From assembly GCA_022450155.1 (NCBI GenBank), contig JAKUQR010000010.1:1-64000 (forward strand): a DNA stretch of 64,000 bases. The letters are read 5' to 3'. Under the pieces are notes generated by a model. That model searched no databases. It was not told the DNA's origin and saw only the letters and a program-made list of their open reading frames with translations. Source of the DNA: Gammaproteobacteria bacterium. GTDB lineage: Bacteria > Pseudomonadota > Gammaproteobacteria > Arenicellales > UBA868. Shown here piece after piece: positions 35,789-60,285 of this stretch (positions are counted from its first letter, which is position 1; the number at the start of each line of letters is the position of its first letter). The translations under genes and the position numbers were made by a program.

Positions 35789-36217
35789 TCAGCTGACGTT
35801 ACTATCGGGTATTACCGCAGTCACTTCGATCTCCACCGACCACTCAGGCCGGGCCAGTGCCGAGACAACCAGCCCAGTTGAACACGGGTGTACACCCTTG
35901 AACCATTTGCCCATCTCCTGATAAACGGAATCTCGATACCGGATATCGGTCAGGTAGACCACCACACGGCACACCTGTTCAAGACAGCTGCCCGCTTCCC
36001 CAAGCAATAGGGAAACGTTTTCCATTGCTTTTCTGGTCTGGGCACCGGCGTCATCGGTGAAAAGCGACTCACGAGTCTCGAGATCCTGGGCCACCTGTCC
36101 CCGCAGAAAGACCGTAGTTCCTTTCGCGACGACTGCCTGGCACAGATCATTGTCCAGGCTCTGTTCGGGATAGGTGTCTCGGGTATTGAACTTGCGCAGG
36201 CGTGTGTGAGTCATCAT
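35789..36217 (-). CDS. RidA family protein without the catalytic Arg
   Basis: 142-residue Rid-family protein. The C-terminal motif reads HPCSTGLVVSAL where RidA proper has PARS/PARA, so the arginine needed for 2-aminoacrylate hydrolysis is absent. Such forms belong to the poorly characterised Rid4-7 type groups or to RutC-like pathway proteins. The Glu of VEIEVTAV is kept. GGAG precedes ATG 36217. It lies directly downstream of the HpaB-type gene, as RutC accompanies RutA, suggesting a dedicated pathway role. Confidence 0.88.
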   Translation of the reverse strand: MMTHTRLRKFNTRDTYPEQSLDNDLCQAVVAKGTTVFLRGQVAQDLETRESLFTDDAGAQTRKAMENVSLLLGEAGSCLEQVCRVVVYLTDIRYRDSVYQEMGKWFKGVHPCSTGLVVSALARPEWSVEIEVTAVIPDSNVS

Positions 36218-36232
36218 CGGTTCTCCGTTTAT

Positions 36233-37753
36233 TCAGGCCGCTGATTTGCCGGCGGGCCTGGCACCAAACAGCTGTTTGGCGCTGGTGTCCCCGGCCGTCT
36301 GATCGATACGCTCTAATAATTCTTCCGACAGACCAGCTGCCCGGTGGGCAAAGCCCAGTGATTCGCCCCAGTCAAAATTTCTGTACACCGCTGCCAGATG
36401 TGCAAATGGTGGTGACTGCGCAAAGAGCTGGAAAGTCAATCGATGGCCTGCATAGTCCGAATTCAGCAGATCGCGGGCGAATGCCAGAAGTTTACGTCGA
36501 TCCTCAGCAGTCCACTCGTCATTGATTGTATAGAATTTCTCCATCCATTTACCGGTCTCCGGATGCCTGAAGCTTGCAACATCCGGGGTCACACAGATCT
36601 GTCCACCACACAGTTCCCGCGCCAGGTGCATCATCGCCGGCAGATTCGAGCACGCATGAACCCGTCCTGTAAAAAGCAATGACTGATTGGGCATCAACAG
36701 TCCGCCAGGGCTCCTTTCAGCGGTCGCGATAGCAGCGGTCAGGTGTGCGTTGATTCCCTCGCGGTAGACCGCAAGTTGGGACAGTTTCTCCTGTACGGCT
36801 GGCTGCTTGTCCAGACCAGTCTGGCGCACGTTAAACAGTGCAGCGCCGATCATCAGATCGGCCATCTGCAGGTTGCGCTGTACAAATGCAAAGGCGCTGT
36901 AACGGTGCAAGGTTGACCGAATGAAGGTGGCCGCTTTCGTGTGACGGTAGAACAGCACATTTTCCCAGGGTATCAGGACATTATCAAATACCACCAGCGC
37001 ATCGATTTCATCGAACTTGTTGGCGAGCGGATAATCCTCAGCTGATGCGCGCCCGGTAAAACCGGTACGGCAAATCATCTTGATACCTGGAGACCCGAGA
37101 TCACAGATAAATCCAACTGCATAGTCAGACAATTCGCTGTCACCCCAGTTGGCGATGGTTGGCTTGGTGAACGCCTGGTTCGCATAAGGCGCCGCCGTTT
37201 CGTACTTTGCCCCGCGAACAACAATGCCCTGATCTGTCTCACGGACCACGTGCAGCAACATGTCTGGATCCTGGTCCTGAGGTGCCTTGGATCGGTCACC
37301 CTTGGGATCGGTGTTGGCCGATACATGAAAAGGATCGATCCTGATCACGCGATCAACATGATCACGAATATTTTGTGAAAACTGCGGGTCCATTTCGTTC
37401 AGCACGTCCTGCCCATCGTACAGGGACCACATCTCGCCGACGGTTTCATCACCCACACGGGTCACAATCCCACCGACATCATCCATCACTGCGTCGGTGG
37501 CCTCACGCTTCCGGTACCAGTCCTCCTGCGCGTACGGCAATTTAAGTCCCACCGAGAAGGTCTCACCTTCCTCTTCATAGGTCATCACGTGCCGCGTTGC
37601 GGCATCGTGCTGCATCTCGTAAATACGGGCCCGAATGTCGACCACGGGCTTGAACATCGGATGCGTCGGCACGTCGTCGACTTTCTCGCCATTGATCCAG
37701 ACCTGACGACCATCGCGGATAGAGTCCAGGTATTCAGCAGCGGTTCTGATCAT
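36233..37753 (-). CDS. HpaB-type flavin-dependent monooxygenase, large component
   Basis: 506-residue protein of the 4-hydroxyphenylacetate 3-hydroxylase family. Family features are YLDSIRDGRQVWINGEKV at the start, the FHVSANTDPKGDRSK segment, the FDNVLIPWENV flavin-region motif and the RELCGGQICVTPD segment near residue 370. It uses reduced flavin from the reductase at 34521 to oxygenate an aromatic or heterocyclic ring. It is the first gene of the operon and is divergent from a LysR gene. The true substrate is unknown; the rest of the operon does not match 4-hydroxyphenylacetate breakdown. Confidence 0.92.
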   Translation of the reverse strand: MIRTAAEYLDSIRDGRQVWINGEKVDDVPTHPMFKPVVDIRARIYEMQHDAATRHVMTYEEEGETFSVGLKLPYAQEDWYRKREATDAVMDDVGGIVTRVGDETVGEMWSLYDGQDVLNEMDPQFSQNIRDHVDRVIRIDPFHVSANTDPKGDRSKAPQDQDPDMLLHVVRETDQGIVVRGAKYETAAPYANQAFTKPTIANWGDSELSDYAVGFICDLGSPGIKMICRTGFTGRASAEDYPLANKFDEIDALVVFDNVLIPWENVLFYRHTKAATFIRSTLHRYSAFAFVQRNLQMADLMIGAALFNVRQTGLDKQPAVQEKLSQLAVYREGINAHLTAAIATAERSPGGLLMPNQSLLFTGRVHACSNLPAMMHLARELCGGQICVTPDVASFRHPETGKWMEKFYTINDEWTAEDRRKLLAFARDLLNSDYAGHRLTFQLFAQSPPFAHLAAVYRNFDWGESLGFAHRAAGLSEELLERIDQTAGDTSAKQLFGARPAGKSAA

Positions 37754-45522: not shown

Positions 45523-46416
45523 ATGTTCGAAAGTTTTGAGCGATCACAGATAGACAGTAACGGCTGCCGAATCAACGTCGTTCATAGTGGTTCTGGACCC
45601 GGTCTGCTGTTGCTGCACGGCTACCCACAGAATCACGTCGAATGGCACAAAGTTGCTCCACGCCTAGCAGAGAATTTTACGGTCGTTTGCCCAGACCTTA
45701 GAGGGTATGGCGACAGCGGGAAACCACCTTCGTCAAATGACGACCTCTCAACTTATTGCAAACGGACCAGCGCCCGGGATCAGATTGCAGTGATGCGGCA
45801 ACTCGGTCATCCGCAGTTCCACCTGGTTGGTCACGACCGCGGTGTCCGAGTTGGACTTCGTCTGGCACTTGACCATCCAGATTCTGTGCTGAGTTTTACC
45901 AACCTGGATGTCATGCCATCGATGGAGGCCTTTGAGAACATGGATGCCTCGCTCGCCTATTCCTGGTTCCACTGGCACCTGATGCGGCAACCATCACCGC
46001 TACCTGAAATTGTATTCAGTACCAATCCTAAACTTTTTCTCGACTTCTTTCTGGAAAACTGGACATCGGTATCGGGCAGTTTTACAGATGCCGCTTATAA
46101 AGAATACCTACGCTGCTTTTCAGACCCCGATACCGTGCGTGCCATGTGCGCAGACTACCGCAGTGTAACGCTCGACATGAAACACGATAATGCGGACCGG
46201 GGAACAAAGTTATCCTGTCCGGTGCTGGTACTGTGGGGTAGCGAAATGTCGAAACGACCTGGTTGGCAAACTGGGAAGAATCTGGACATGATGGAGGCTT
46301 GGCGTGCACGGGCGCCCGACGTTCGAGGCAGCGCACTTGCTTGCGGCCATTTTATACCCGAAGAAAAACCTGATGAGTTGATTTCCGAATTGCTCAAGTT
46401 TTTGTCATCAATATAA
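45523..46416 (+). CDS. Fluoroacetate-dehalogenase-like alpha/beta-hydrolase
   Basis: 297-residue alpha/beta-hydrolase with the complete active-site set known from fluoroacetate dehalogenases: Asp105, Arg106 and Arg109 in GHDRGVR, Asp129 in LDVMPS, His150-Trp151 in WFHWHL, Tyr212 in CADYR and His276 in CGHFIP. The residue spacing is near identical to FAc-DEX. These enzymes hydrolyse the C-F or C-Cl bond of haloacetates. General haloacetate dehalogenase or epoxide hydrolase activity remains possible. It is monocistronic and precedes the AT-rich region. Confidence 0.85.
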   Translation: MFESFERSQIDSNGCRINVVHSGSGPGLLLLHGYPQNHVEWHKVAPRLAENFTVVCPDLRGYGDSGKPPSSNDDLSTYCKRTSARDQIAVMRQLGHPQFHLVGHDRGVRVGLRLALDHPDSVLSFTNLDVMPSMEAFENMDASLAYSWFHWHLMRQPSPLPEIVFSTNPKLFLDFFLENWTSVSGSFTDAAYKEYLRCFSDPDTVRAMCADYRSVTLDMKHDNADRGTKLSCPVLVLWGSEMSKRPGWQTGKNLDMMEAWRARAPDVRGSALACGHFIPEEKPDELISELLKFLSSI

Positions 46417-46453
46417 TAAGGATAAACAGTAGAAATCCGCCCGATATTTCACC

Positions 46454-47938
46454 CTATCCTTCGACTATCGCCTCTGCCTCGATCTCAACCAGATAATCAT
46501 CTATCAACTGTGAAATCTCAAACGTCGCATTTGCCGGGCACACGTCACCGAAATAACGGCCATGAACCAAAGATACCGCTTCACAATCTTCTGCGTTCTG
46601 CAAATAAACCCGCGTGCGGACGATATCAGAAAGAGACCCACCAAGAGACATGACACTAGCCTTAATCTTATCGAGTATATATACCGCCTGCCCCGGAGCG
46701 TCTCCTCGACAAACAATAACGTCCTGACCGTGGGTTGCGGTCGTGCCACTAACCAGAATCCGGTTTCCAATTCGGACTGCTCGGGAATGCCCACAGATCT
46801 TTTCCCATTTAGTGCCGCTGAACACTTGAGTGCGGTCGGTCTTTCCGGGTACAGCAATTGGCTCATAAACAGTAGGCAGCGAATCGAGATGGTGACTAAG
46901 ATCACCAGTTGCAGTCAAAAAAGGAGGTTCACGATACTCATCACCACAGTCGCCCTTTAGGCGGCAAATATCAGCCATCGATTCGGCGATCAGACTCTTG
47001 TCTTCCTCATCCAAAACAAAAGAAAATATCGTAAGATTATCTTGTCGGTGCTGGCTTTCGGTCAGTCTCGCGCCGATAATTACTGCGCCTACAGCCGGTT
47101 GATCCAGAACCCAGCGAGTTGCAACATTGGCTACTGAGACATCGTGACGTTGTGCAACAGATGTTAGTGCTCGCAAGATAATTTGTAAGTTTTCCCAGCC
47201 TCCCGTCTCATCTATAAACCGCTTGTATTTCATTTTGCTCCAGTCATTCAATTCTGAATTCCCTGGTTCCGGCTTGTCTAACCATCTTTCTGTAAGAAAT
47301 CCACCTGCCAAAACACCATATGCAAAAAGTTTGATGCCATTTTTCAACACCTCCGTGGTCATATCTCCCAAAGCACGTTGATCCAGCAGTGAGACCACCA
47401 CCTGGTTAGAAACAACCGGGAAACCGTGACGAAGGAGTACCAATAAATGATCGGTATCAAAGTTGGTTAAACCAATATTGGCGATCCGACCACCTTCATG
47501 TGCCAGCATGAGGCCCTCCATAGCATCTAAGTATCCTGGGTGCTGGAATGTCCACCAATGAAGCTGCAGCAGGTCTACCGATTCAACACCAAGTCTATCT
47601 GCACGCTCATCAATAGCATCTCGAACTACTTTGGGTGACATTCTGCCGGGCTTTGGACACCACTTTGTATGAAACCGCGCTACGTTCAAATTGTCGCAAG
47701 TCTCTTGACGAAGTTGAAGTATTTCCCTCGCCCGGCCAGAGATTAACTCGGCGCTTCCATAGTGATCAGCCATATCAAATGTGTCGAAACCTTCCAAAGC
47801 ATATTCAACAAGATTCTCAGCTGCCGCTTCGAGATCGAGATTGGACCCATCTTTTTCAAGATCTGCCACTTGCCATAGACCCGTAATAACTTGACTGATC
47901 TCGTAGTTTGGCGACAACAACAACCGTTCTGGTTTCAT
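46454..47938 (-). CDS. Aldo/keto reductase fused to a Rid-family domain
   Basis: 494-residue fusion. Residues about 1-335 form an aldo/keto reductase with an intact tetrad: Asp55 and Tyr60 in FDMADHY, Lys92 in FHTKW, and His127 in LLQLHWW. Residues about 370-494 form a Rid domain ending in VEIEAEAIVEG. The Rid arginine position reads CPANATFEI, so it is not a classical 2-aminoacrylate deaminase domain. An enzyme joining NADPH reduction with imine/enamine handling would fit conversion of an imine or ketone intermediate. Length is about 130 residues above usual AKRs. Confidence 0.9.
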   Translation of the reverse strand: MKPERLLLSPNYEISQVITGLWQVADLEKDGSNLDLEAAAENLVEYALEGFDTFDMADHYGSAELISGRAREILQLRQETCDNLNVARFHTKWCPKPGRMSPKVVRDAIDERADRLGVESVDLLQLHWWTFQHPGYLDAMEGLMLAHEGGRIANIGLTNFDTDHLLVLLRHGFPVVSNQVVVSLLDQRALGDMTTEVLKNGIKLFAYGVLAGGFLTERWLDKPEPGNSELNDWSKMKYKRFIDETGGWENLQIILRALTSVAQRHDVSVANVATRWVLDQPAVGAVIIGARLTESQHRQDNLTIFSFVLDEEDKSLIAESMADICRLKGDCGDEYREPPFLTATGDLSHHLDSLPTVYEPIAVPGKTDRTQVFSGTKWEKICGHSRAVRIGNRILVSGTTATHGQDVIVCRGDAPGQAVYILDKIKASVMSLGGSLSDIVRTRVYLQNAEDCEAVSLVHGRYFGDVCPANATFEISQLIDDYLVEIEAEAIVEG

Positions 47939-48057
47939 ATGGCTTTACCCTGATCTAATCACTAATCCTATTTGGTCGAATTTGTTTCTGATGATAGCGA
48001 CTAATTTGATGTCAATAACCGTACGTAACATCCTTTGCTCAGAAATTTTTGTCAGCC

Positions 48058-48921
48058 TTAATCACTGATCATTAAATTTCTTATCATCCGATTGATTTTA
48101 CTGCCGTTGTCTGCAAACTCGTCCATCACGATATCAATATGGTTACGATTCGGAACGACAGTCGCAAAACTCTTAAGGCCAGCCGCAGACCAACTCTCGT
48201 TTATCTCTAACTGCTGGAATAAAAATTCTTCGGTCTCATTCCCACCCACAATGAATAGCAATTCTCCAGCTTCGCTCGGAACATTGTGAATGGGGCTATA
48301 CATGCGAACATCGTCCTCGGAAATACATAGTATTTTATTCTTAGTACTCTGTCGGACAGGTTCTAGATCATACAATCCGCTGATCGCACAACCTGTAGAA
48401 ATAACATCAGCAGGAAGACCCTTTTCCACAGGCCATAATCTATCCATTAGCAAAGTTACCAGATGACCTCCTGCCGAATTACCCGAAATCGAAATGTTAG
48501 TTGGATCAATATTCAGATCTGACTGATGCTCATATATCCATTGAACAGCTCGCTGACAAGAGTCAATAATGATCGGGAAGTTAGCTTCTGGAAGCATTGG
48601 ATAGTCGATGACAATCACAACTGTTCCATCTTCACAGAACCCATCAGCAACAAAACTGAAGGCCTTTGCATCCAGTGAATGCCAGAATCCACCATGGATA
48701 AACATCTGAACACAACCATTTTGCTCAATAGTCTTATCAAGAAAAATATCTAACATCTGCTCTTGATGTGTGCTGTAGGGTACATTCAATACCGGTTCAA
48801 GTCTTGTCCGCGACCGGACACTTCTTTCAAGCCTTCTCTCAAACAATGAGTCTAAAAAAGGCACGCTGTCGAGGACAAACTGTGCCTCAAGCTGATCGCT
48901 ACTGTAGTTTCGATATGCCAT
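48058..48921 (-). CDS. Alpha/beta-hydrolase, kynurenine-formamidase-like (paralogue 1)
   Basis: 287-residue hydrolase with the HGGFW oxyanion motif (76-80) and the nucleophile Ser149 in SGNSAGGH, as in arylformamidases and related carboxylesterases. His of the triad is likely in NRNHIDIV near the C-terminus. It shares N-terminal layout (SSDQLEAQF..) and length with the hydrolase at 53965, so the two are paralogues flanking the transporter operon. The substrate is probably an N-formyl or ester/amide group on a small molecule. Confidence 0.83.
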   Translation of the reverse strand: MAYRNYSSDQLEAQFVLDSVPFLDSLFERRLERSVRSRTRLEPVLNVPYSTHQEQMLDIFLDKTIEQNGCVQMFIHGGFWHSLDAKAFSFVADGFCEDGTVVIVIDYPMLPEANFPIIIDSCQRAVQWIYEHQSDLNIDPTNISISGNSAGGHLVTLLMDRLWPVEKGLPADVISTGCAISGLYDLEPVRQSTKNKILCISEDDVRMYSPIHNVPSEAGELLFIVGGNETEEFLFQQLEINESWSAAGLKSFATVVPNRNHIDIVMDEFADNGSKINRMIRNLMISD

Positions 48922-48993
48922 ATATCGGACTTAACATTGCTTATTATCGATATTGAGACCAGAGAAAGAATTGGTTATCCAGAATTACAGTCT

Positions 48994-49932
48994 CTAACTC
49001 GAAAGGTGTTTTTTCTCGGGTAATATTCCTGATGGTCTAAAGACCAGCATAAGCACCAATACCATCCCCACAATAATTATTCGCAGGGATGCCGCTTGTG
49101 TCTGATAGTCGGGGGTTACGATAAAATTGATTAGACTATCACTTGCAGACCACAACCCCCAGATGACAATTGCGCCGACGATGGCACCTAGGTTGTTGCC
49201 TTTTCCACCAACGATCAACATCACATACACCTGAATTGTGAATATCGGCAAGAAATCTTGCGGACTGATAAATCGGACAAAATTTGCGTACATCGCACCC
49301 GCCAATCCCATGATTCCACAACCAAGAACAAAGGCTTGCAGACGAAACAAAAATACATTTTTTCCCAAAGCCTCGGCGGCGACTTCATCCTCTCTGATTG
49401 AACGAAGCACCCTGCCCCAGGGAGATTTCACGACACGCTCAAGAGCGTAGTAAATGAATACTATGGTCACGATACAGATGATGAGATAGCACAAATTGCT
49501 CATGAATGCAGAGTCTAAGAATCGAGAAAATGGCTTGGGTAGTGCATACAGCCCGTTTGGCCCGCGTGTCACCGACTCTGCATTAAGCGCCACCAACTGA
49601 ATACTTATTGCTATTCCAAATGTGGAAATCGCAAGAAAATCTTCTCGCAATCTCAAAGTCACCAAACCAACCAACACTCCAGCTAGACCAGAAACCACAA
49701 TCGCGCATATCCAGCCTAGAAGTATAGGCAATTCGAAACCACCGAACATGGTATCCGGGTAATCAGGACCGGTAATAATTGCACTGGTATACGCCCCAAC
49801 TGCAAAGAAGCCCGCGATACCAACATTAAACATGCCGGTAAACCCATATTGGATGTTTAATCCTAGAGAACTGATGATATAAAAAGAACAAATAATGAAA
49901 AAGAAAATAAAAAATGACAGGATATCAATCAT
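48994..49932 (-). CDS. livM: Branched-chain amino-acid-type ABC permease LivM
   Basis: 312-residue inner-membrane permease of the LivM family with about nine hydrophobic segments. The SSLGLNIQYGFTGMFNVGIAGF segment and the EAA-like SIREDEVAAEALG loop are typical. ATG 49932 overlaps livH by 8 bases and has an AAAGAG site; 49947 is an alternative. It works with LivH and the two ATPases. The ligand need not be a branched-chain amino acid; many Liv systems import amides, urea or aromatic acids. Confidence 0.93.
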   Translation of the reverse strand: MIDILSFFIFFFIICSFYIISSLGLNIQYGFTGMFNVGIAGFFAVGAYTSAIITGPDYPDTMFGGFELPILLGWICAIVVSGLAGVLVGLVTLRLREDFLAISTFGIAISIQLVALNAESVTRGPNGLYALPKPFSRFLDSAFMSNLCYLIICIVTIVFIYYALERVVKSPWGRVLRSIREDEVAAEALGKNVFLFRLQAFVLGCGIMGLAGAMYANFVRFISPQDFLPIFTIQVYVMLIVGGKGNNLGAIVGAIVIWGLWSASDSLINFIVTPDYQTQAASLRIIIVGMVLVLMLVFRPSGILPEKKHLSS

Positions 49933-50830
49933 CTCTTTCTTTCTCACCTATGATTCCCTGAGGTCTCACAATTAGGACAACAATCATGATTAGAAATGAT
50001 ATCGCGCCACGATAAGCAGAAAGATCTGCGGCGACCGCAAAGGCTTCCGTCAAACCAATCAAGAATCCACCGAGCACCGCTCCATAGACATTCGTCACAC
50101 CCCCCACGATCAACGCCGCAAACATCGGGAGTATGAGTTCGAACCCCATTTCGGGATCAAGTTGTGTGACATGAGCATGTAGCGTTCCCGCAATTGCCGA
50201 CAGCGACGCACCAATTACCCAAGACCATCGAATAACAGATTTCACGTTAATGCCATTAACCATCGCCAAGATTGGATTCTCTGCAACCGCCCGCATTTTC
50301 TTGCCCATCGTGGTTATGGATAAAAACGAATGTAGGGAAACCACACAAATAGCTGTGATAACAAGAATGACAATGTCATCTGGTACTACCTTGATGTCAC
50401 CAAATATCGGAATTGCTCGTGGGATGTAAAAGCTTAGGAACATCTGGTCCGCACCCGCAACCAGCGTGATGACATTTCGGATGATCAGCGATAACCCAAA
50501 TGCAGCAATTATGAATGTAATTCGAGATGCTGCTCTCTCTCTGAGCACACGGAAAAGCACCGAATCGACCACGAGGACAATGACACTAGTAACCGCAATG
50601 GAAAACACTATTGAGCCAAGCAAAGGCCATCCAAATGAGATGGGGCCAATAGATCCAATCCCTGCGCCCATCAACACGATAAATGCCATGGAGATGTATG
50701 CACCAATTGCAAGAATTTCACCTTGAGCAAAATTTGCAAATCGTAATACGTTGTAGGCAATGCTGAGGCCTACGGCACCAAGTGCGATGATTGAACCGCT
50801 AACAAGGCCGTCGATAAAGTACTGAATCAT
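49925..50830 (-). CDS. livH: Branched-chain amino-acid-type ABC permease LivH
   Basis: 301-residue permease of the LivH family. It opens with FIDGLVSGSIIALGAVGLSIAYNVLRFANFAQGE, the family signature, and continues with several hydrophobic segments and the AVAENPILAMVNGIN cytoplasmic loop. Its ATG overlaps the LivF stop as ATGA, so translation is coupled. It forms the membrane channel together with LivM. Confidence 0.94.
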   Translation of the reverse strand: MIQYFIDGLVSGSIIALGAVGLSIAYNVLRFANFAQGEILAIGAYISMAFIVLMGAGIGSIGPISFGWPLLGSIVFSIAVTSVIVLVVDSVLFRVLRERAASRITFIIAAFGLSLIIRNVITLVAGADQMFLSFYIPRAIPIFGDIKVVPDDIVILVITAICVVSLHSFLSITTMGKKMRAVAENPILAMVNGINVKSVIRWSWVIGASLSAIAGTLHAHVTQLDPEMGFELILPMFAALIVGGVTNVYGAVLGGFLIGLTEAFAVAADLSAYRGAISFLIMIVVLIVRPQGIIGEKERDD

Positions 50831-51582
50831 GATGCTCGTGCCATTGAACCGGCTCCAAAATAAATTTCGGCAACTTCGGGGTCCTCTAAAAGCTCGCGAG
50901 CATTTTTTACCAGTCGAAGACGGCCATTCGCTAAGATAGCCCCACGGTCGGAGACAGAAAGTGCAGCGCGTGCATTCTGTTCGACCATGACCACAGTTAC
51001 ACCACTGTCTCGAATTTGGACGACATGCTGGAAGACCTGATTTCTAAGGACGGGAGACAATCCTGCCGAAGGTTCATCAATAAGCAGTAACACGGGGTCG
51101 GCCATGAGTGCACGACCTAACGCAAGCATCTGTCTCTGACCCCCAGATAGTTTTCCAGCAGTGGTGTCTCTGAATCTGCTTAGATCGGGAAATAATTCGA
51201 AGACTTTCTCTAGCCTTTCAGCATAGGCTTGCGTGTTTAATATCGCGCCTAAATCTAGATTATGCAAAACCGTCAGTTTCGCAAATACATTTTCTGTCTG
51301 GGGCACATAAGCCACCCTGCGCTCAATGATTTCATACGTTTCCAACTCGGATATATTTTCACCCTGAAACAATATTTCACCCGATATTACTTCTATCAGC
51401 CCACAGATCCCCTTTATTAACGTTGACTTTCCGGCACCGTTCGGACCTAACAATGTAAGAATTTCACCCTGGATAACTTCCAGTGACACATCGATAACAA
51501 TCGGCAACACGCGTTGGTATCCGGCCACAAGGTTACTGACTTGGAGAATGGCTTTACCTGAGCTGGGATCAGAATTATTCAC
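50827..51582 (-). CDS. livF: Branched-chain amino-acid-type ABC ATPase LivF
   Basis: 251-residue ABC ATPase: Walker A GPNGAGKST, signature LSGGQRQ, Walker B LLLIDEPSAGLSP, and the family His-switch replaced by VEQNARAAL as usual for LivF. GTG 51582 is taken as start; GTG 51618 is possible and lies 28 bases after livG. It energises transport with LivG. Confidence 0.93.
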   Translation of the reverse strand: MNNSDPSSGKAILQVSNLVAGYQRVLPIVIDVSLEVIQGEILTLLGPNGAGKSTLIKGICGLIEVISGEILFQGENISELETYEIIERRVAYVPQTENVFAKLTVLHNLDLGAILNTQAYAERLEKVFELFPDLSRFRDTTAGKLSGGQRQMLALGRALMADPVLLLIDEPSAGLSPVLRNQVFQHVVQIRDSGVTVVMVEQNARAALSVSDRGAILANGRLRLVKNARELLEDPEVAEIYFGAGSMARAS

Positions 51583-51645
51583 GGTGACTGTTGGTGCAAA
51601 ATAATAAAGCACCAACACCTCTAGTGTTCTATAACCAATCTTGTA

Positions 51646-52416
51646 TTAGTTGTTCCTTGGAGATGCCTCACTACCCAAGAATGCATCTATCAAGCGAGGA
51701 TCTGAACGAATTTCTTCCGGACTACCTTGCATCAGCATATCGCCATCGGCCATAACTAGAATAGATGAGCACAATCGCATCACAAGTTCCATGTTGTGCT
51801 CAATGATCAGAAACGTCACTCCTTGACGGTGTATATCTTTTATTCGATCGATTATTTCTTCCAGTAAAATTGGGTTCACACCTGCAGCTGGCTCATCTAG
51901 TAGGATAAGCTTAGGATCAGACATCAACGCTCTGCCAAGTTCCAGGAGCTTCAATTGTCCGCCTGAGAGATTCCCTGAAAACTCATTCTGAAGATCAGCC
52001 AGATTTAAAAATTCCAGCAAATCCTTGGCTTTGTCTTTTATTTTGAGCTCTTCCTTTTTTACTGCACTGTTCTGCAACCAGTTGTTCCAGAGCTTTTCGC
52101 CAATTTGTTTGCGTGGGACCATAGTCAGGTTTTCAAGAACTGTCATTCCTGAAAATGGTCTAGGAATCTGGAACGTGCGAACAATGCCGAGCTGAAAAGT
52201 CTGATATGGTCTAAGGCCTGTGATCTCATGCTCATTAAAAAATACTGCGCCACTCGAAGGAGTAAGATGACCAGCGATCATATTGAATGTTGTTGTTTTC
52301 CCGGCTCCATTCGGTCCAATCAAGCCCGTAATCGTATTCGGCTCAACGGTGAATCCGAGGCCACTCACCGCAGTCAAGCCGTCAAATTCTTTTGTTAGAT
52401 TCTCAACAGTTAGCAT
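51646..52416 (-). CDS. livG: Branched-chain amino-acid-type ABC ATPase LivG
   Basis: 256-residue ABC ATPase with Walker A GPNGAGKTT, signature NLSGGQLKLLELGRAL, Walker B LILLDEPAAGVNP and the LIIEHNMELVM switch segment typical of LivG. ATG 52416 (MLTVENLTKEFDG) is the natural start; the frame is open to 52503. It is preceded by the hairpin that separates it from the binding-protein gene. Confidence 0.93.
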   Translation of the reverse strand: MLTVENLTKEFDGLTAVSGLGFTVEPNTITGLIGPNGAGKTTTFNMIAGHLTPSSGAVFFNEHEITGLRPYQTFQLGIVRTFQIPRPFSGMTVLENLTMVPRKQIGEKLWNNWLQNSAVKKEELKIKDKAKDLLEFLNLADLQNEFSGNLSGGQLKLLELGRALMSDPKLILLDEPAAGVNPILLEEIIDRIKDIHRQGVTFLIIEHNMELVMRLCSSILVMADGDMLMQGSPEEIRSDPRLIDAFLGSEASPRNN

Positions 52417-52493
52417 GGTGTAGAAATTCGTGAATCCGACTAATACTACCCTCCCTAGTGATAAAGAGTAGGTTGTAACTGTTTCAACTATTA

Positions 52494-52525
52494 AAGAGGC
52501 CAAGAAGCTAGCTTCTTGGCCTCTT
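52494..52525 (-). terminator. Perfect 32-base hairpin between livJ-type and livG genes
   Basis: Two perfectly complementary 15-base arms, AAGAGGCCAAGAAGC and GCTTCTTGGCCTCTT, surround TA. It lies 22 bases after the stop of the substrate-binding protein gene and before livG. It can act as a partial terminator or 3' mRNA stabiliser, so the binding protein is made in excess over the membrane parts, as is common in ABC operons. No strong U-run follows, so read-through is expected. Confidence 0.7.
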
Positions 52526-52547
52526 AGATCGAATATTTTGTTCCTGT

Positions 52548-53855
52548 TTAGTTGTTCATGGCTCGAACCTTCGCCTTCACTTCAGAAACCTCCTCAAGCG
52601 ATACACTGCCGACAGTAACATATTCGCCATCTTTGATTTTCATCATGACAAATGGCACGGCAACATCGCCATAAGGATCAAAATCAATCGGTCCTGTTGC
52701 GCCAACATACCAAATATTCTTACCAGCTTTGATGGCACTTATGGCCAACTTTAATCCCTCAACACCACCATGATGCTGCTCACCGTCTGGACCCGTAATT
52801 TCTCGGACAATCTTGGCAAGCGTTGGCCCGCTCGTATCGAGGCCACGCATATCAGCGGCTACCATCGCCAATCCAATAAGCACACCGGCGTCATAACCTG
52901 AATTTCGTCCGGGACCTTTGGGACTCGCGTCCCAGCGAACCTGAAAGTCGGCTTCCATCTGTTGGAGAGAAGAATTTTCTGGCGTTCCAGGACTAATGAA
53001 CCACGCATTCTTCAAAAGATCTTCACCGACGGTATCTACAAATGCGCTGTCGTTCATACCTTGTGGCATGATGAAATTTTGTGGTCCATCAAATCGAATC
53101 CAATCTCTAAAATGTTTGACGCCATCCTGGGTATTGCTGAGCATATATAAGCTATCCGGATCGCCTTCCAGTGTTTTGGTAATTTCGGACCGGTAAGTCG
53201 GTTGATCTGGATTAAATGGAACGGAATTAGCTATCTCTCCACCCAACGCCTTAAATGCATCTATAAAGCCGGCCTTGTTATTTTTCCCCCAGTCATTGTT
53301 AAAATAAATAATCGCTGGTTTACGAAATCCTGCCTGGTAAGCCATCATGGCAGCAGCGACTGCCTGTAATGAGTCTGACGGTAAAGTGCGGAAAAAGAGC
53401 CCTTTGGTCTCTCCTCTTTTCGCCATATTGGTAAACGTCGAAGACGTAGATGCTGTGGCTATGACCAGAACGTCATTCTCAACTGTCACAGAACTGAGTA
53501 ACGGAGCAGTAATACCTGACGAGACTGGACCTACCAAAGCAGTTACGCCTTCAAGATCAATCAGCTTTCGTGCGGCATCCACAGCAAGGGAGGCTTGGGT
53601 GTTTGAGTCTCGAACGTCGTATACGAGATCACAGCCAACCCCGAGTGCCGCTCTGGCTTCATTGACTTGCTCAACTCCAAGCTGAGCCGCCCTTGATATG
53701 GGAACGCCATGCGCACCATAGGCCCCGGTCAGCGAAAGCACAGCGCCGATCTTATGTTCACACGCTGCTAGAGACGCATTGAATCCACTCGAACCGGCCA
53801 TACACAATAGAGCGGCGCCCAGCACCCCCACAACCTTCTTTTGTCGCATTTTCAT
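52548..53855 (-). CDS. Periplasmic substrate-binding protein, LivJ/LivK type
   Basis: 435-residue type I periplasmic binding protein. ATG 53855 has AGGAG 8 bases ahead; ATG 53861 and an open frame to 53939 are less likely. Residues about 1-30 are a signal peptide (KVVGVLGAALLCMAGSSG) with likely cleavage after SLA. IGAVLSLTGAYGAHG and GPVSSGITAPLL are ligand-pocket strands of the family. It delivers the ligand to the LivHMGF permease. The ligand is unknown but is presumably metabolised by the neighbouring reductases and hydrolases. Confidence 0.93.
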   Translation of the reverse strand: MKMRQKKVVGVLGAALLCMAGSSGFNASLAACEHKIGAVLSLTGAYGAHGVPISRAAQLGVEQVNEARAALGVGCDLVYDVRDSNTQASLAVDAARKLIDLEGVTALVGPVSSGITAPLLSSVTVENDVLVIATASTSSTFTNMAKRGETKGLFFRTLPSDSLQAVAAAMMAYQAGFRKPAIIYFNNDWGKNNKAGFIDAFKALGGEIANSVPFNPDQPTYRSEITKTLEGDPDSLYMLSNTQDGVKHFRDWIRFDGPQNFIMPQGMNDSAFVDTVGEDLLKNAWFISPGTPENSSLQQMEADFQVRWDASPKGPGRNSGYDAGVLIGLAMVAADMRGLDTSGPTLAKIVREITGPDGEQHHGGVEGLKLAISAIKAGKNIWYVGATGPIDFDPYGDVAVPFVMMKIKDGEYVTVGSVSLEEVSEVKAKVRAMNN

Positions 53856-53964
53856 CTCCATTACTCCTTTTATTTGTAGAGGAAACAAACCATAGCTAAT
53901 AAATTTCGTTAAGCGTGAAGTGATTGTATAACGAACCAACTCTGAGTCGGAATATTTTCCATGC

Positions 53965-54828
53965 TCAATTTGAAGTTGCTAGTTTGAACAATAAACCGTC
54001 GGGCTCGGCGTAGTGATCCAGAATTGAAAAATGGTTCGCGTTTTCAATGAGTGCTGATTGACTACCCTTTCCGAGGCCAGCTTGCATCATCGCAAAGTCA
54101 TGCGTTTGTCGGACCATTTCCAAACCTTCATGGGTACCGACAGCCAGAACCAGGTCGCCGGCGTAGTTTTCACTACAGGACAGTGGCGAAAACTCGTCCA
54201 CATCGCGTTGTGTCAGACCTATTTCCCTATTACGATCGATATAGACGACTGGCTGCAGGTCGTAGATTCCACTGATACCCAAAGTTCTGCTGATTATCGG
54301 TCGTTGGTCGTGAGAGTAGCGATCCCACTGGGTTGCGGCCAGAATTGCAACGATCTGAGCACCCGCGGAGTGGCCCGCTAAATTGATCTCTCCGCTGTCA
54401 ATCCCCCAGGTTTTCAATCGACTCACAAGATCCAGAACCATTTTGCGACACGAGTTAACAAGTTCAGTCATGGTCACATCTGGGCAAAGCGGATAATTTG
54501 CGCCAATAAACGTCCAGCCCTTGTCTACAAAAGCGGGGGCCATAAACTCAAAATTTGCCTTGTCTTGGGAATACCAAAACCCGCCATGGAAAAATATGTG
54601 TACCGGAAACTCTGACCCACCCGGAAAAACATCATAGGTCTCAAGACTATGGTCTCCGTAACAAACATCAAGTTTTGTCTCTAAGTCTGCCCGAGCACGG
54701 TCGCTGTCGCGCTTCCAGCTAATCGGATAGTCATCATAGTGTGGGATTCTGTGTTTTTGGTTATAAAGATTCTCCAGTTGATCCTTGGTAAACCCTCGAT
54801 AAGGCTTGTCTGTCATTGAATTTTCCAT
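53965..54828 (-). CDS. Alpha/beta-hydrolase, kynurenine-formamidase-like (paralogue 2)
   Basis: 287-residue hydrolase with HGGFW (81-85) and the nucleophile Ser154 in AGHSAGAQ, the Asp-containing NLA..strand before it, and His in ENANHFSILD near the end. It is the paralogue of the protein at 48058 and the same length. It is the first gene before the transporter operon on the minus strand, with 109 bases to the binding protein gene. Likely function: cleavage of a formamide, amide or ester of the imported compound. Confidence 0.83.
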   Translation of the reverse strand: MENSMTDKPYRGFTKDQLENLYNQKHRIPHYDDYPISWKRDSDRARADLETKLDVCYGDHSLETYDVFPGGSEFPVHIFFHGGFWYSQDKANFEFMAPAFVDKGWTFIGANYPLCPDVTMTELVNSCRKMVLDLVSRLKTWGIDSGEINLAGHSAGAQIVAILAATQWDRYSHDQRPIISRTLGISGIYDLQPVVYIDRNREIGLTQRDVDEFSPLSCSENYAGDLVLAVGTHEGLEMVRQTHDFAMMQAGLGKGSQSALIENANHFSILDHYAEPDGLLFKLATSN

Positions 54829-55012
54829 CTACCTGAACATTAAGTGTTTAGTGACACAATCGGGAGTGAGCAATCAAGGATACTACGGACTACATCCTAC
54901 GAGTACTCTCATAAACTCATAGATTGAAGCACAATTACTATGATCGGAACCAACAAATGCGATTAATAGGAGCTAATCAATATATCCTCAAAAATCGTTT
55001 TCACTGAATACT

Positions 55013-56026
55013 ATGATTCCTAAAGTATCACTTGCCCCAGATTACTCAGTCAGCCGCTTGATTGCCGGAGGCTGGCAGTTACAAAACCAAGGCGACAATG
55101 TGATCAATGACCTTTTGCGACTCAGTCGCTATGGGATTACCACTTATGAAACTTCAGATACCTATAAAAACGGACAAACTCTTCTAGGTAGATTTCTTGC
55201 CAGAGCTAAACAATCACTCTCCAGCGAGATATTTTCAACGCTTCAAATTCATACCCGATATACAGCACCGATTACAGGTTCTGTCCCAGGTAAAGCCACA
55301 ATTGTCGATACTGTTGATCGCTCATTGAGAGAATTGAATGTCACTCGACTGGACCTGTTACAACTCCAATGGTGGAACATCGAAGTGCCTGGCTTCGAGG
55401 AAACGCTATCGGTAATTGGTGATCTTCGCAAGGCTGGAAAAATTCATCACATCGGCACTACAAACTTCGGCGTCTATCTTCTGGACCGAGCAAGATCAAC
55501 TAATGTTCCTCTAACAACAAACCAGGTTCACTACTCAATTCTAGATCGCCGAGCAGAAAATCAACTTGCCAACTATGCAAAGCAGTATGGAATAACTTTA
55601 CTAACCTACGGTGCACTGGCGGGCGGATTTCTTGCTCGGAAGTGGTTCGGTGCTCATGACCCTTTAGTCGTTCCTTCAAACGCTATCAGGTTTAGTCGGG
55701 AATATCGGTGCATCATCGATATGGTGGGTGGGTGGAATTCCTTCCAGACTCTGTTAGGTGTCCTAAATACCATCGCGTCTAAACAAAATTGCTCACTCTC
55801 AGCGGTAGCTCTGAGATGGGTGCTACAAATGGGACTTCCAAGTGCGGTTCTAGTCGGCTTATCTACCTCGCAACGACTAACAGATCTTCTGTCGGCATTT
55901 AAGATTAATCTTTCGCCAACCGACCTCGTCTCCATTCAAGAAACAGTAGGTCGTTCGAACGAAGACGTGGGCCAACTCGAGCGCGATACTGAGTCTTCAC
56001 TATTTGCAGCGATACATTCAAACTAG
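55013..56026 (+). CDS. Aldo/keto-reductase-fold protein with altered catalytic tetrad
   Basis: 337-residue AKR barrel. In the place of the Asp-Tyr-Lys-His tetrad it has Glu46, Tyr51, Arg82 and Gln119 (YETSDTY, IHTRY, LLQLQWW), so three of four positions are replaced. Other barrel features are kept, including GAGGIxxxK-type residues such as YGALAGGFLARKW. Reduced or different catalysis is likely; it may act as a lyase-like, racemase-like or binding protein. It diverges from the hydrolase and the other AKR converges on it. Confidence 0.87.
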   Translation: MIPKVSLAPDYSVSRLIAGGWQLQNQGDNVINDLLRLSRYGITTYETSDTYKNGQTLLGRFLARAKQSLSSEIFSTLQIHTRYTAPITGSVPGKATIVDTVDRSLRELNVTRLDLLQLQWWNIEVPGFEETLSVIGDLRKAGKIHHIGTTNFGVYLLDRARSTNVPLTTNQVHYSILDRRAENQLANYAKQYGITLLTYGALAGGFLARKWFGAHDPLVVPSNAIRFSREYRCIIDMVGGWNSFQTLLGVLNTIASKQNCSLSAVALRWVLQMGLPSAVLVGLSTSQRLTDLLSAFKINLSPTDLVSIQETVGRSNEDVGQLERDTESSLFAAIHSN

Positions 56027-56059
56027 ATTGAATCTCGGACTCAGACTCATCAGAATTAA

Positions 56060-57100
56060 CTAAGTTAACTGATTCTGGTTATAGCGCATTATTTGTCCAT
56101 GGCGCCCAGTCTTATCTCGCTCGAGATCATAGCAATCACCCACTGGCCCCGACCGTTCCTTTAGTGCTGAATCTAGTAGATCATTGTCGCCAGGCGTCAG
56201 CGAGAATCCAAATACCCGAAGGTTCTCTGTGATGTGAAGTGTGGACGTCGCGCCAACAATCGCAGCTGCGACTCCCGGTTTATCCAGAACCCAGCGCAAC
56301 GCCACAACTGGAACAGTAACCTCATACTTATCCGCTACAGTTTTTAAGCACCTGAGCAGTTGTTGAAAGGTGTCCCACCCGCCGAAGTCTTCGATAATTA
56401 GTTTGTACTTCGTTAGGGACCTATTTGGGAAAGGCTCTAGAGGCTCGGATTTCCCAATCCAATCAGAAGAAATAAATCCACCAGCCAAAGTTCCGTAACA
56501 CAGCTGACTAATGTTGTTCTCCAAGCTACAAGGAATGAATGACTGTTCCGGACGAACGTCTATAAGCGAGTATTGCGGCTGGTTAGTAACTATTGGAACA
56601 TTGGCTTCCAGCAATGTGCGCAGATGTGAGGTATTAAAGTTCGTAGCTCCGATCCTCGCAATTTTTCCAGCTTCTCTCAGTTCATTGAGTACAAGTGCCG
56701 TCTCAACGAAACCAGGCGTTTTGTCCGGGTCCCACCAGTAATATTGAACCAGGTCAAGTTGCTCGACCCGTAATCTCTTGAGTGAACGATCAATAATGCT
56801 TTCTACATATTGACGATCAACTGTAGCCAAACGGTCATAATCGGGTACGATCTTTGTGTGTATCTGTACGGATTTTGCCAGTTCTGGATAGGTGGTTCGA
56901 AATTTCCCTATGAGTTCTTCTACTCCCGTATAGTGATCTGCACAATCGAAAGTTGTAATTCCATGCTCAACAAATGTAGCCATATCTTTAATTGCTTGTG
57001 CTGGATCTACAGTGCCATGTCCACCCGCAAGATGCCAACCGCCCTTGATAAGTCGTGAGATCGAGTATCCCTTTGTCAATTCAATACGTTCAACGTTCAT
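56060..57100 (-). CDS. Aldo/keto reductase with Tyr in place of tetrad His
   Basis: 346-residue AKR with Asp52 and Tyr57 (TTFDCADHY), Lys83 (IHTKIVPDY) and Tyr121 in LVQYYWWD, where His is usual. It has an LCYGTLAGGFISSDW strand near residue 215 and a NADP-type GATSTLHITENL loop. His-to-Tyr or His-to-other changes occur in some AKRs, for example steroid 5-beta reductase with Glu. Its start ATG overlaps the TIGR04076-like gene stop by 4 bases (ATGA). Converges on the AKR at 55013. Confidence 0.88.
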   Translation of the reverse strand: MNVERIELTKGYSISRLIKGGWHLAGGHGTVDPAQAIKDMATFVEHGITTFDCADHYTGVEELIGKFRTTYPELAKSVQIHTKIVPDYDRLATVDRQYVESIIDRSLKRLRVEQLDLVQYYWWDPDKTPGFVETALVLNELREAGKIARIGATNFNTSHLRTLLEANVPIVTNQPQYSLIDVRPEQSFIPCSLENNISQLCYGTLAGGFISSDWIGKSEPLEPFPNRSLTKYKLIIEDFGGWDTFQQLLRCLKTVADKYEVTVPVVALRWVLDKPGVAAAIVGATSTLHITENLRVFGFSLTPGDNDLLDSALKERSGPVGDCYDLERDKTGRHGQIMRYNQNQLT

Positions 57101-57444
57101 TTAGACTTATTCCTAGGAAGTGGGTTGGCCGTGGTTTCGGAATGTGAAAATGTTCGCCGATTTAGTCTATTGATCTTAAATTTAGAACCACAATTTGGGT
57201 CAGGACAAGCAATAAGATTGTCTGTTGACATCCAATCGTTGGGATCAGTTTCTCTCTGTTTAGCAGGAAGAAGTGGCAAGAGAGCTGCCAAAGTATAAAT
57301 TGACCATGTTTGTGATTCTGGGAATTCTAGATGTTCCCCTCTCAAATAGAAGCAATCCCCAGCTTTAGCGCCACACCAACAAGGCCTGTCTCCCTCAAGC
57401 CACTCGATCTTTAAATCATAAAGTGAAAAAGTATCGTCAATCAC
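57097..57444 (-). CDS. TIGR04076-like small protein
   Basis: 115-residue protein resembling the TIGR04076 family: LKIEWLEGDRPC, GDCFYLRGEHLEFPE, and the IYTLAALLPLLPAKQRE helix. Cysteines at CWC..GDC and CPDPNCGSKF could bind a metal. AGGAG precedes GTG 57444. It is coupled with the AKR downstream. I know no established function; family members often accompany aldo/keto reductases and alpha/beta-hydrolases in anaerobes and catabolic operons, which fits here. Confidence 0.7.
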   Translation of the reverse strand: MIDDTFSLYDLKIEWLEGDRPCWCGAKAGDCFYLRGEHLEFPESQTWSIYTLAALLPLLPAKQRETDPNDWMSTDNLIACPDPNCGSKFKINRLNRRTFSHSETTANPLPRNKSK

Positions 57445-57630
57445 AGATATCTCCTGTTGGAATGGAACAGCGATTTGAATCCGACATGAGAGGCCGAGTT
57501 AACACCCAAAACTCCCGACTGATTTAATGAGTCGTTCGCGCCATTCTATCCCAAGAGAGATTTCAAAATTGTTCACCGATCAATTCAAAAAGTACACTAG
57601 TCCTCTCAGATCTTACTGGTGGAAATACTG

Positions 57631-58236
57631 ATGGCATTACGCACTGAAAACACTGCACTGATTGTCATCGATATGACAAATGGGTGGTGCTCATCTGAAG
57701 GACACATGGCAAAACTTGGTTTTGACACAACAATGTGTCGTGACACTGTGGACAAATGCAGATCACTGATCATGTACGCACACCAAAGTAATGTGCAAGT
57801 GATATTTACACAACATATCTATCGAGAGGATTACTCCGATGGGGGTTTCATCGTTGATGAAATAATGCCCGAATTGAAATCAGTTAAACCAGCTTCTGCT
57901 AACGCATGGAGTAATCAAATCGTTACCCAACTAAGGCCTCTACAACAAGACATAGTCATCAAGAAAAATAGATACAGCGCATTTTTTTCTAAGGATTTCA
58001 CAAACCATCTTAAGCGACTCTCCATCACTGACTTGGTACTATGCGGTGTCACAACCAGTATGTGTGTCGAAAGTACAGCACGGGACGCAGCTCAAAGAGA
58101 TTACCGAACTTTCGTGGTTAAAGATGCAACAGCCGATATCGAAACTATTCGATACGAACAAGCACTAATCAACTTGGAATTTGGTTTTGCCCGCTTGATA
58201 TCGGTTTCCGACGCTAAGGACAAATGGAGCGGGTAA
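57631..58236 (+). CDS. Isochorismatase-like cysteine hydrolase
   Basis: 201-residue protein of the isochorismatase-like hydrolase family. The Asp-Lys-Cys triad is visible: Asp14 in IVIDMTNG, Lys111 or Lys112 in IKKNRYSAF, and Cys145 in LCGVTTSMCVESTARDA. Members hydrolyse small amides, such as nicotinamide, N-carbamoylsarcosine, maleamate or ureidoacrylate. ATG 57631 has a GGTGG site at good spacing; GTG 57619 is possible. It closes the AT-rich block and may release ammonia from the degraded compound. Confidence 0.87.
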   Translation: MALRTENTALIVIDMTNGWCSSEGHMAKLGFDTTMCRDTVDKCRSLIMYAHQSNVQVIFTQHIYREDYSDGGFIVDEIMPELKSVKPASANAWSNQIVTQLRPLQQDIVIKKNRYSAFFSKDFTNHLKRLSITDLVLCGVTTSMCVESTARDAAQRDYRTFVVKDATADIETIRYEQALINLEFGFARLISVSDAKDKWSG

Positions 58237-58258
58237 CTAGTTTGTGTAGATCCAGCCG

Positions 58259-59179
58259 TTAAGCATCGTATCCTTTAAAGGCGTCCTCTAACAAAGAGTC
58301 AAACTGTAACCGAGCACACCAGCCGAGTTCCCGTTCGGCCAGAGCGGTACTGAACATCGACGCATTGGGTTCAGCACGATAACGATCTGGATCCCGCACG
58401 ATGCTGGCCGGAATGCCCATCGCCTGTGCCCGCTCCAACGTGGGTAGGGGACTCATGGACCATGGTGCAACAGCAAAGTACAACTGCCAGGATGATGACA
58501 GGTCAGCCCTTACTGCGGCAACAAAACCGTCTGCAGCATCCTCCGGCGCTATAAACGAGCGAGTCGCCGTCAATGGCTCGTTCAGCGCATGGTTATCCTG
58601 GGGCAGATCACAGAGCCACTCGACACCGTCCTGCCCTGCCAGCGCCCGGGCGGTTGCGATCACCACATCTGGAAAAACGACAAACGCCGGTCTCAGGCAC
58701 ACTACCTCGATACGGCCTCGACGGGCAAAACAGCGTCCCACGGTCTCAGCCACCTGTTTGCTCAAACCATAAGCCTGCCGTGGACGACACGGATGATTTT
58801 CATCAATCGGTAGATAGTCCGGTGGGGTGTCGTCACCGATTCCCAGGGCAGCAACGCTGGAGCACAAAACCACACGCTGAACACCGGTCTCCTCGGCCGT
58901 TTCCAGCACATTCCAGGTGCCTTGCACATTGATCTCAAAAAACGCTTGCTCCGTCGCTGGCACTGCTGCGTCGAGCGCCGCCAGATGGATCACCATATCT
59001 CGATCGACCATCGCGGCCTGCAAACTGGTACGATCCAGGATATCCGCCTGAACCTGATCAATGTCGCTCCCCCAACCCACCTTGTCGAAGTTGCGTACAT
59101 CAAAACCCTGGGCCACAAGCGCCGTGTGCACATAACGGCCCAGACGCCCACTTCCTCCAGTGAGGAGAACGCGATTCAT
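58259..59179 (-). CDS. NAD-dependent epimerase/dehydratase
   Basis: 306-residue extended SDR. It has LTGGSGRLGRYVHTAL (cofactor loop), the DMVIHLAALDA strand, CSSVAALG and YGLSKQVAE (YxxxK). ATG 59179 overlaps the stop of the Rieske oxygenase gene by 4 bases, so it is coupled to it. It may oxidise or epimerise the product of the oxygenase or a nucleotide sugar; the substrate is not evident. Composition returns here to that of the left part of the window. Confidence 0.9.
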   Translation of the reverse strand: MNRVLLTGGSGRLGRYVHTALVAQGFDVRNFDKVGWGSDIDQVQADILDRTSLQAAMVDRDMVIHLAALDAAVPATEQAFFEINVQGTWNVLETAEETGVQRVVLCSSVAALGIGDDTPPDYLPIDENHPCRPRQAYGLSKQVAETVGRCFARRGRIEVVCLRPAFVVFPDVVIATARALAGQDGVEWLCDLPQDNHALNEPLTATRSFIAPEDAADGFVAAVRADLSSSWQLYFAVAPWSMSPLPTLERAQAMGIPASIVRDPDRYRAEPNASMFSTALAERELGWCARLQFDSLLEDAFKGYDA

Positions 59180-60285
59180 GCCTGATCGAACAGCGCTCTA
59201 GCGACCCTTGACCGGAATGCAGCCGTACCCTGCTCCCATACCGGCGACATGTCTGCGGTACGGGATGCTGTTGGTGAATGGGCCGCAGCCTGTAGGTCCG
59301 CAAGCACTTCAATATCCTGATTCATAATCTCGCACCAGGCCTCGGCCGTGCGTTGGCGCTCATCGACCAGTTTCGGATCGGTTGCATCTTGATCAATAAA
59401 ATAGAAGTTTAGGTGCTCGGTACAGCGAGCCGGACCATCAGGCTCTACCGCAACCAGCATCATGTGGCGTGGCTGCAGTTCGATCAAGGTATTCGGGTAC
59501 AACGCAAGGATATCCTGGGAGATCTTTTGGGCATCGGATAACCGGTCAAATTGACGCAAGTGCTGACCCGATGATTTTGGCTTGTCCGCCGCGCCGGTGG
59601 TGTAGCAGATGCCGAAAACCGTGTCATCGATGTTGACGTCTGTAAAACGCCGAGCTGCGGCAACATCGCCGAGCTGCGGGTGGACCATGGGCAAGTGATA
59701 AGTATCCAGGAAATTCTCGATCACAAACTTCCAGTTGGCATCCACTGTCAGGGTTCGCTGCTCGCCTAAACCGAAACGGGATAAATCATAGTTTTCCCAG
59801 CGCGAGATCAGCGGCGCCACAAAATCTTCGAACTCAGGTGCTTTGCCGTCAATGTTCACGAATACCTGGTCCAGCCAGACCGCAACGCGGACGGGTTCCA
59901 GGCCATAGTGCTGTGGGTCAAATTCAGCCGGTGCGCTGCGATCGCCGGTCTTCCAGTGTGGCGTGCCGCGTAACGCCCCGTCCATCCCATAGGCCCAGCC
60001 GTGATATTTGCAATGCAGAAGTATTTTCCCCTGGCACGGTGCTCGCAGCACTCGCGCACCACGATGACGACAGACATTGTGGAATCCTCGAATACTCCCG
60101 TCTTCATCCCGCAGCAGAATCAACGGAAGACCAGCCACCGTCACGGGAATCGCATCGCCCCGACCGGCCATCCGGCTGGCGCTTCCGGTATTGACCCAGG
60201 TACGGGCAAACAGGACATCATTCTCCTGTTCATAAAGCTTAGGATCATGGTACGCCGCTGTTAACTGTTCTTGCCGTGACCTCAC
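59176..60285 (-). CDS. Rieske non-heme iron oxygenase, alpha subunit
   Basis: 369-residue oxygenase. The Rieske [2Fe-2S] ligands are in CRHRGARVL and CKYHGWAYG (about residues 67-92). The mononuclear iron site is in ENFLDTYHLPMVHP near residues 195-210. Its form is closest to single-subunit groups such as choline, carnitine or betaine demethylases. No reductase gene is adjacent, so electrons may come from elsewhere. It precedes the C26 hydrolase gene region by same-strand orientation and is coupled to the epimerase. Confidence 0.9.
   Translation of the reverse strand: MRSRQEQLTAAYHDPKLYEQENDVLFARTWVNTGSASRMAGRGDAIPVTVAGLPLILLRDEDGSIRGFHNVCRHRGARVLRAPCQGKILLHCKYHGWAYGMDGALRGTPHWKTGDRSAPAEFDPQHYGLEPVRVAVWLDQVFVNIDGKAPEFEDFVAPLISRWENYDLSRFGLGEQRTLTVDANWKFVIENFLDTYHLPMVHPQLGDVAAARRFTDVNIDDTVFGICYTTGAADKPKSSGQHLRQFDRLSDAQKISQDILALYPNTLIELQPRHMMLVAVEPDGPARCTEHLNFYFIDQDATDPKLVDERQRTAEAWCEIMNQDIEVLADLQAAAHSPTASRTADMSPVWEQGTAAFRSRVARALFDQA

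Follow-up and report, generated by a model that had tools for sequence, protein, structure and literature searches.

What unites the genes of a low-GC block on a gammaproteobacterial contig, and where did they come from? The block lies in the first 64,000 nucleotides of contig JAKUQR010000010.1 (assembly GCA_022450155.1; Arenicellales, UBA868), hereafter the window, where a first-pass annotation made from the letters alone had described an AT-rich catabolic island. Twelve genes occupy 46,454-58,236 and Pfam and NCBIfam place them in the families named there. GC content is 0.455 at 46,454-57,444, against a median of 0.553 for same-sized sliding segments across the window, and the five segments of lowest GC all lie over this block, bearing out its AT-rich character. 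From the gene for a TIGR04076 protein (57,444) down to that for an aldo/keto reductase (AKR) fused to a Rid domain (46,454), all genes lie on the minus strand, overlapping or separated by short gaps. The exception is AKR2, which is antisense and sited between AKR3 and the hydrolase gene ABH2. The block is probably a horizontally acquired uptake-and-redox cassette, whose importer, AKRs, Rid domain and TIGR04076 protein would act by the steps proposed below, a reading we hold with moderate confidence. It is apparently an undescribed representative of a known kind, the catabolic operons linked to Liv-type importers.

A scan of one genome per species found 28 loci carrying the fusion in several phyla, and plasmids and further genomes brought the total to 50, a few of which duplicate one genome. 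In the 29 well-flanked loci, where the sequence extends at least 6.5 kb to either side of the fusion, the TIGR04076 gene was present in 25, AKR3 in 26, LivG in 28, and LivK, LivF, LivH and LivM in 26 each. Together with the fusion these make a core of eight genes, found across Alpha-, Beta-, Gamma- and 'Delta'-proteobacteria and Acidobacteriota and often plasmid-borne. Hoeflea alexandrii and Rhizobium sp. SL42 are among the carriers that can be cultured. On several annotated plasmids the cassette is self-contained between unrelated genes, usually accompanied by a regulator of the GntR family (the one tested being of FCD type) and sometimes by a DUF4440/SnoaL-like gene. An independent search based on TIGR04076 gave matches in 16 of 399 Pseudomonadota genomes; 10 of the 12 regions fetched held the cassette and one more the TIGR04076-AKR pair alone. 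No cassette match was found in E. coli genomes at megablast sensitivity.

The first-pass annotation had called for a search for the same gene set elsewhere, and for the eight core genes the set holds together, as importer and reductases co-occur far beyond chance. The rest does not follow: the two hydrolases and AKR2 occur in 3-4 of the 50 loci and the isochorismatase-like gene in one, so that the 'hydrolase set' is a local addition. In line with this, the closest non-gammaproteobacterial relative of the window's cassette (L014) has the same gene order without ABH1, ABH2, AKR2 and the isochorismatase, marking these four as additions in the window's clade. Since catabolic genes abound in the window, the block might be a chance neighbourhood. 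We regard this as next to impossible: at least 25 independent well-flanked loci, in different phyla and on plasmids, share the gene set, and a relative has an empty site. Chance is thus refuted for the eight core genes and remains plausible for the isochorismatase. The annotation's statement that no described pathway has this gene set held within a limited open-access literature search (TIGR04076, AKR with Rid, DUF3830, and AKR with isochorismatase and transporter), and a search on homarine catabolism yielded nothing informative for the cassette.

The empty site is found in G007, a genome of the same family but a different genus. There the same flanks meet with 31 bp between hydrolase and epimerase and the cassette is absent; the left side carries a fatty-acid desaturase, a flavin reductase and the alpha/beta hydrolase, the right side the epimerase, a Rieske oxygenase, a peptidase C26 and DUF3501, and the whole stretch is uniform in GC. 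The corresponding flanks in the window, outside the island, are an alpha/beta hydrolase on the left (45523..46416, plus strand), which abuts the epimerase gene at the empty site, and on the right the NAD-dependent epimerase (58259..59179, minus strand), followed by the Rieske oxygenase (59176-60285) and the peptidase C26 (60307-61098), all syntenic there. In the congener G002 these flank genes enclose the cassette as well, but the isochorismatase and the left alpha/beta hydrolase are both missing. Between the window and this congener, synonymous divergence (dS) is 0.73-3.4 for the cassette (all but LivM at least 1.0) and 0.38-0.64 for the right-flank genes. GC at third codon positions is 0.33-0.49 in the cassette versus 0.58-0.60 in the right-flank genes, and omega is 0.03-0.17 in all cassette genes. 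Of 194 relatives, 4 carry the fusion, counting the window's genome, and among 369 sampled Gammaproteobacteria it occurs in the window's genome only.

Empty site, composition shift and patchy distribution thus support the claim of an acquired set. Most simply, the block was acquired and its function then maintained; the high dS would also fit separate acquisitions, or a replacement, inside the genus. Over the wider family the protein tree runs against taxonomy, placing Acidobacteriota within Comamonadaceae and splitting 'Deltaproteobacteria' between two positions. Scans for promoters and terminators gave results at or below shuffled expectation, and a repeat scan found nothing resembling a mobile-element border. 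A contig labelled SAR202 (Chloroflexota; L013) carries the cassette with gammaproteobacterial flanks at 73-91% protein identity and is likely mis-binned or a very recent transfer.

One core gene encodes the unusual AKR–Rid fusion (46454..47938, minus strand, 494 aa). All three AKR-fold proteins that the annotation had listed are present, but one of them is this fusion, whose Rid domain had been missed: PF00248 lies at 17-319 and PF01042 (Rid/YjgF/UK114) at the C-terminus, at 383-491. The AKR tetrad D55/Y60/K92/H127 is intact and reads D/Y/K/H in all 48 readable fusions. The cassette AKRs share their fold, and the fusion also its tetrad, with YhdN/IolS/YdjG-type (AKR11-like) enzymes, yet differ from them in an 'HWW' motif after the catalytic residue, in the fused Rid domain and in their operon partners, and none of the curated NCBIfam AKR models matched them at cut-off.

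The Rid domain shares PF01042 and an equivalent of RidA Glu120 (Glu in 42 of 44 readable fusions and Asp in two, with six of the 50 unread) with the Rid/YjgF/YER057c/UK114 family of RidA, RutC, TdcF and AmnE. It differs from them in being joined to an AKR and in its catalytic position. When it was aligned with RidA-type structures, Asn470 fell at the Arg of 'PAR' (Arg105 in RidA), and Asn occupies this position in 50 of 50 fusions, as Arg is likewise missing from Rid4-Rid7 (PMC4433059). That Arg is essential for imine hydrolysis, Arg-less Rid subfamilies are probably not imine-hydrolysing (Niehaus et al. 2015, PMC4433059), and in 2015 the functions of Rid proteins lacking it were described as completely unknown (PMC4433059). 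An Arg is also retained in the cleft of the 2-aminomuconate deaminase AmnE (PMC6742747). With Asn at this position, the fusion is unlikely to hydrolyse imines in the classical way, judged from its residues, and another activity is possible. The nearest solved relative of the domain is the uncharacterised 3i7t, and the AKR–Rid fusion has apparently gone undescribed so far. These residues weaken the proposal that the cluster deaminates its substrate and releases ammonia, as this is the sole domain in it that suggested imine deamination; a nitrogen-containing substrate and the release of formate, also proposed, are not supported.

The same Arg position bears on a pyrimidine pathway of the Rut kind, in which the isochorismatase would cleave a ureido or amide bond, the Rid domain would hydrolyse an enamine with release of ammonia, and the AKRs would reduce an aldehyde. 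The Rid domain has a weak RutC match (39.9 bits, NCBIfam), and the isochorismatase-like cysteine hydrolase (57619..58236, plus strand), an AT-rich and doubtful member of the block, has RutB and biuret hydrolase as its nearest NCBIfam and PDB relatives, with which it shares the isochorismatase fold. Its NCBIfam scores, however, are far below the cut-offs (108.8 against 378 bits for the RutB model TIGR03614), and no rut operon was seen in the window. The gene is present, as annotated, but its place in the cluster did not stand: it is absent from the corresponding place in G002, and so is not an established member of the set, and elsewhere isochorismatases are unlinked to the cassette. Arg-less Rid proteins, moreover, are predicted not to hydrolyse imines (PMC4433059). 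A Rut-like pathway, which we consider very unlikely, was rejected on the weak matches and the non-conserved isochorismatase.

Returning to the uptake-and-redox cassette, two further core genes lie at its upstream end. AKR3 (56060..57100, minus strand) keeps D52/Y57/K83, as D/Y/K are kept in 47 relatives, and has Tyr121 at the position of the catalytic His, where the 47 relatives show His in 36, Tyr in six and Phe in five. Its best PDB matches include GSP69/YhdN (1pz1) and IolS (1pyf). Overlapping it by 4 bp is the TIGR04076 gene (57097..57444, minus strand, 115 aa), whose assignment in the annotation was upheld at 63.9 bits against an NCBIfam cut-off of 33. An alignment across the cassette family shows C24, C80, C85 and H101 to be invariant, which suggests a metal site. 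The AlphaFold model (mean predicted local distance difference test, pLDDT, 84) had no PDB match at E<=0.001, and the open-access papers searched say almost nothing about the family. In Rhodococcus (L111 12001-15775) a distant TIGR04076 protein (33% identity) has an APC permease on one side and two LLM flavin oxidoreductases on the other, and an amidase is close by; the theme of transport plus redox appears there again.

The remaining five core genes encode the importer, complete as the annotation had held: a type-I binding protein, two BPD_transp_2 permeases and two ATPases in one run on the minus strand. These are LivM (48994..49947, PF02653), LivH (49925..50830, PF02653), LivF (50827..51618; NCBIfam LivF at 214 bits, below cut-off), LivG (51646..52416, Pfam) and the periplasmic solute-binding protein LivK (52548..53861, PF13458). 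The start of LivG was set at an internal Met by comparison with 256-aa relatives, the open reading frame (ORF) reaching 52503, and that of LivK by alignment with relatives, the ORF reaching 53939. A complete LivKHMGF and the LivK/LivJ fold are shared with Liv-type operons (HAAT, the branched-chain amino acid family) that carry linked catabolic enzymes. The cassette differs from these in its LivK, which matched none of the NCBIfam models. Its AlphaFold model (pLDDT 84) showed the general LivK/LivJ fold by Foldseek, with neighbours that bind leucine, 4-hydroxybenzoate, pyroglutamate, urea and others, so the ligand cannot be assigned from the fold.

Three accessory genes lie among the core in the window. 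AKR2 (55013..56026, plus strand) is clade-specific and has an altered tetrad, with D changed to E, Y kept, K changed to R and H changed to Q. The E/Y/R/Q set is identical in G002 and L013, and omega of 0.15-0.17 indicates purifying selection. ABH1 (48058..48921, minus strand) is an alpha/beta hydrolase with a GNSAG nucleophile motif, found in the window's clade only, plus a distant copy in L023. ABH2 (53965..54828, minus strand), with an HSAG motif, is 30% identical to it. Both match BD-FAE/Abhydrolase_3 in Pfam. Two formamidase-like hydrolases had been annotated; both genes are present, but their nearest NCBIfam model is the lipase HaHSL at 130-138 bits, under its cut-off of 320. Kynurenine formamidase 4e11, although among the best PDB relatives of ABH1, is only one of several.

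This likeness raises the question of whether the cassette serves a kynurenine-like or oxidised-tryptophan compound, an aryl-ketone amino acid or lactam. Such a compound would be imported by Liv, deformylated by the hydrolases, acted on at its ketone by the AKRs and cleaved by a kynureninase-like enzyme. Linkage offers several points in its favour. L014 has a kynureninase-like gene (225 bits against a cut-off of 246) that shares the strand of TIGR04076 and is 59 bp upstream of it. A caprolactamase/hydantoinase beta-like gene and a small protein of unknown family come before this gene, and the upstream module also occurs on another contig of the window's genome (61, 31 and 48% identical). Elsewhere in that genome a kynureninase sits in a run with, and is preceded by, an alpha/beta hydrolase 28-29% identical to ABH1 and ABH2. 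In L085 the fusion gene has a tryptophan dioxygenase and part of a kynureninase about 2.5 kb away, and a haloarchaeon has an annotated indoleamine 2,3-dioxygenase and kynureninase about 9 kb from a TIGR04076-AKR pair. By contrast, a kynureninase-like gene in line with the cassette was seen in only one cassette, and its orthologue also occurs in the cassette-less G007. Six of 36 cassette genomes had no kynureninase match at E<=1e-40, and the enrichment of 30 of 36 carriers versus 9 of 23 cassette-less relatives is confounded by phylogeny. ABH1 and ABH2 are missing from most cassettes and themselves lie outside any kynureninase-type run. Kynureninase as an obligate partner was rejected after a test in 60 genomes. 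We therefore treat kynurenine-like compounds as a weak lead, and the full scheme as improbable.

Two regions of the window's genome were noted alongside this comparison. The first (G000:C20, L115 7638-13803), which holds the module seen upstream of the cassette in L014, has a divergent kynureninase-like gene, and close to it are alpha and beta subunits of caprolactamase/hydantoinase type and a small protein of unknown family. The second (G000:C5, L116 6681-9972) has an alpha/beta hydrolase, a kynureninase scoring over cut-off (326 bits) and an ORF resembling by eye indoleamine 2,3-dioxygenase, with no NCBIfam match.

A link to coenzyme F420, with the cassette feeding an F420-using reductase, came from a 'Deltaproteobacteria' metagenome-assembled genome in which ORFs read as cofC, cofD and cofE and a gene with an F420_oxidored domain (Pfam) lie beside the cassette (L036 4536-8847); both this genome and the window's own were confirmed to have cofD. 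Of 26 genomes with the fusion, however, only 7 had CofD over cut-off and one more had a partial match, and no F420-binding domain was seen in the cassette. With most carriers lacking cofD the link was rejected, and we regard it as extremely improbable. The window's own cofD (G000:C1:146874-147779, L059; 269 bits, over cut-off) indicates that the organism probably makes coenzyme F420, which would be unusual for a gammaproteobacterium. Elsewhere in the window, ORFs at 34521-37753, close to a LysR regulator, resemble by eye a flavin reductase and a monooxygenase of HpaB type.

Several observations weigh against the reading of the block as an uptake-and-redox cassette. The fusion occurs without the core in three well-flanked loci (L025, L035 and L047). 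In the Mesorhizobium cassettes L048 (5574-6875) and L090 (14361-15662), a DAO-family FAD oxidase and DUF3830 replace the fusion, and oxidation can therefore apparently replace its step; the nearest named model for the L090 oxidase is L-pipecolate oxidase, at 305 bits against a cut-off of 600. LivK of the window's clade is 33-39% identical to that of most other cassettes, so the imported compound may differ between them. With Tyr for the catalytic His in the window's clade, AKR3 activity may also be altered. The coreless fusion of L047 (17362-20139), on an Antarctobacter plasmid, stands beside Pot-type and amino-acid ABC transporters, with a glutamine-synthetase-like gene, an N-formylglutamate amidohydrolase and an isochorismatase also among its neighbours.

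How might an uptake-and-redox cassette of this kind work? Each catalytic step can be proposed from the protein families. LivK would take a small polar solute in the periplasm, and LivHMGF would import it at the expense of ATP. AKR3 and the AKR domain of the fusion may then interconvert carbonyl and hydroxyl groups on the compound or its product with NAD(P)(H). The Arg-less Rid domain could serve as a binding, oligomerising or non-classical catalytic partner, keeping a reactive (enamine, imine or carbonyl) intermediate near the AKR, and the small Cys/His TIGR04076 protein may be a metal-binding partner of AKR3. In the window's clade, the added pair of alpha/beta hydrolases and the divergent AKR2 would make an acylated or formylated compound usable. 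We suggest, tentatively and at less than even odds, that the fusion is a new bifunctional enzyme whose Arg-less Rid domain handles an intermediate of the reductase, and that, with TIGR04076 and the importer, it forms an undescribed, widely shared catabolic pathway. The substrate would be a metabolite common in the environment, perhaps a derivative of an oxidised amino acid, kynurenine-like or other.

For the Arg-less Rid domain, fusion to a reductase and a dedicated importer provide a concrete metabolic setting and a testable substrate screen, and the cassette provides TIGR04076 with a recurrent functional partner. Its carriers include cultivable marine and soil Alphaproteobacteria, and the imported compound should thus be findable by ordinary genetics.

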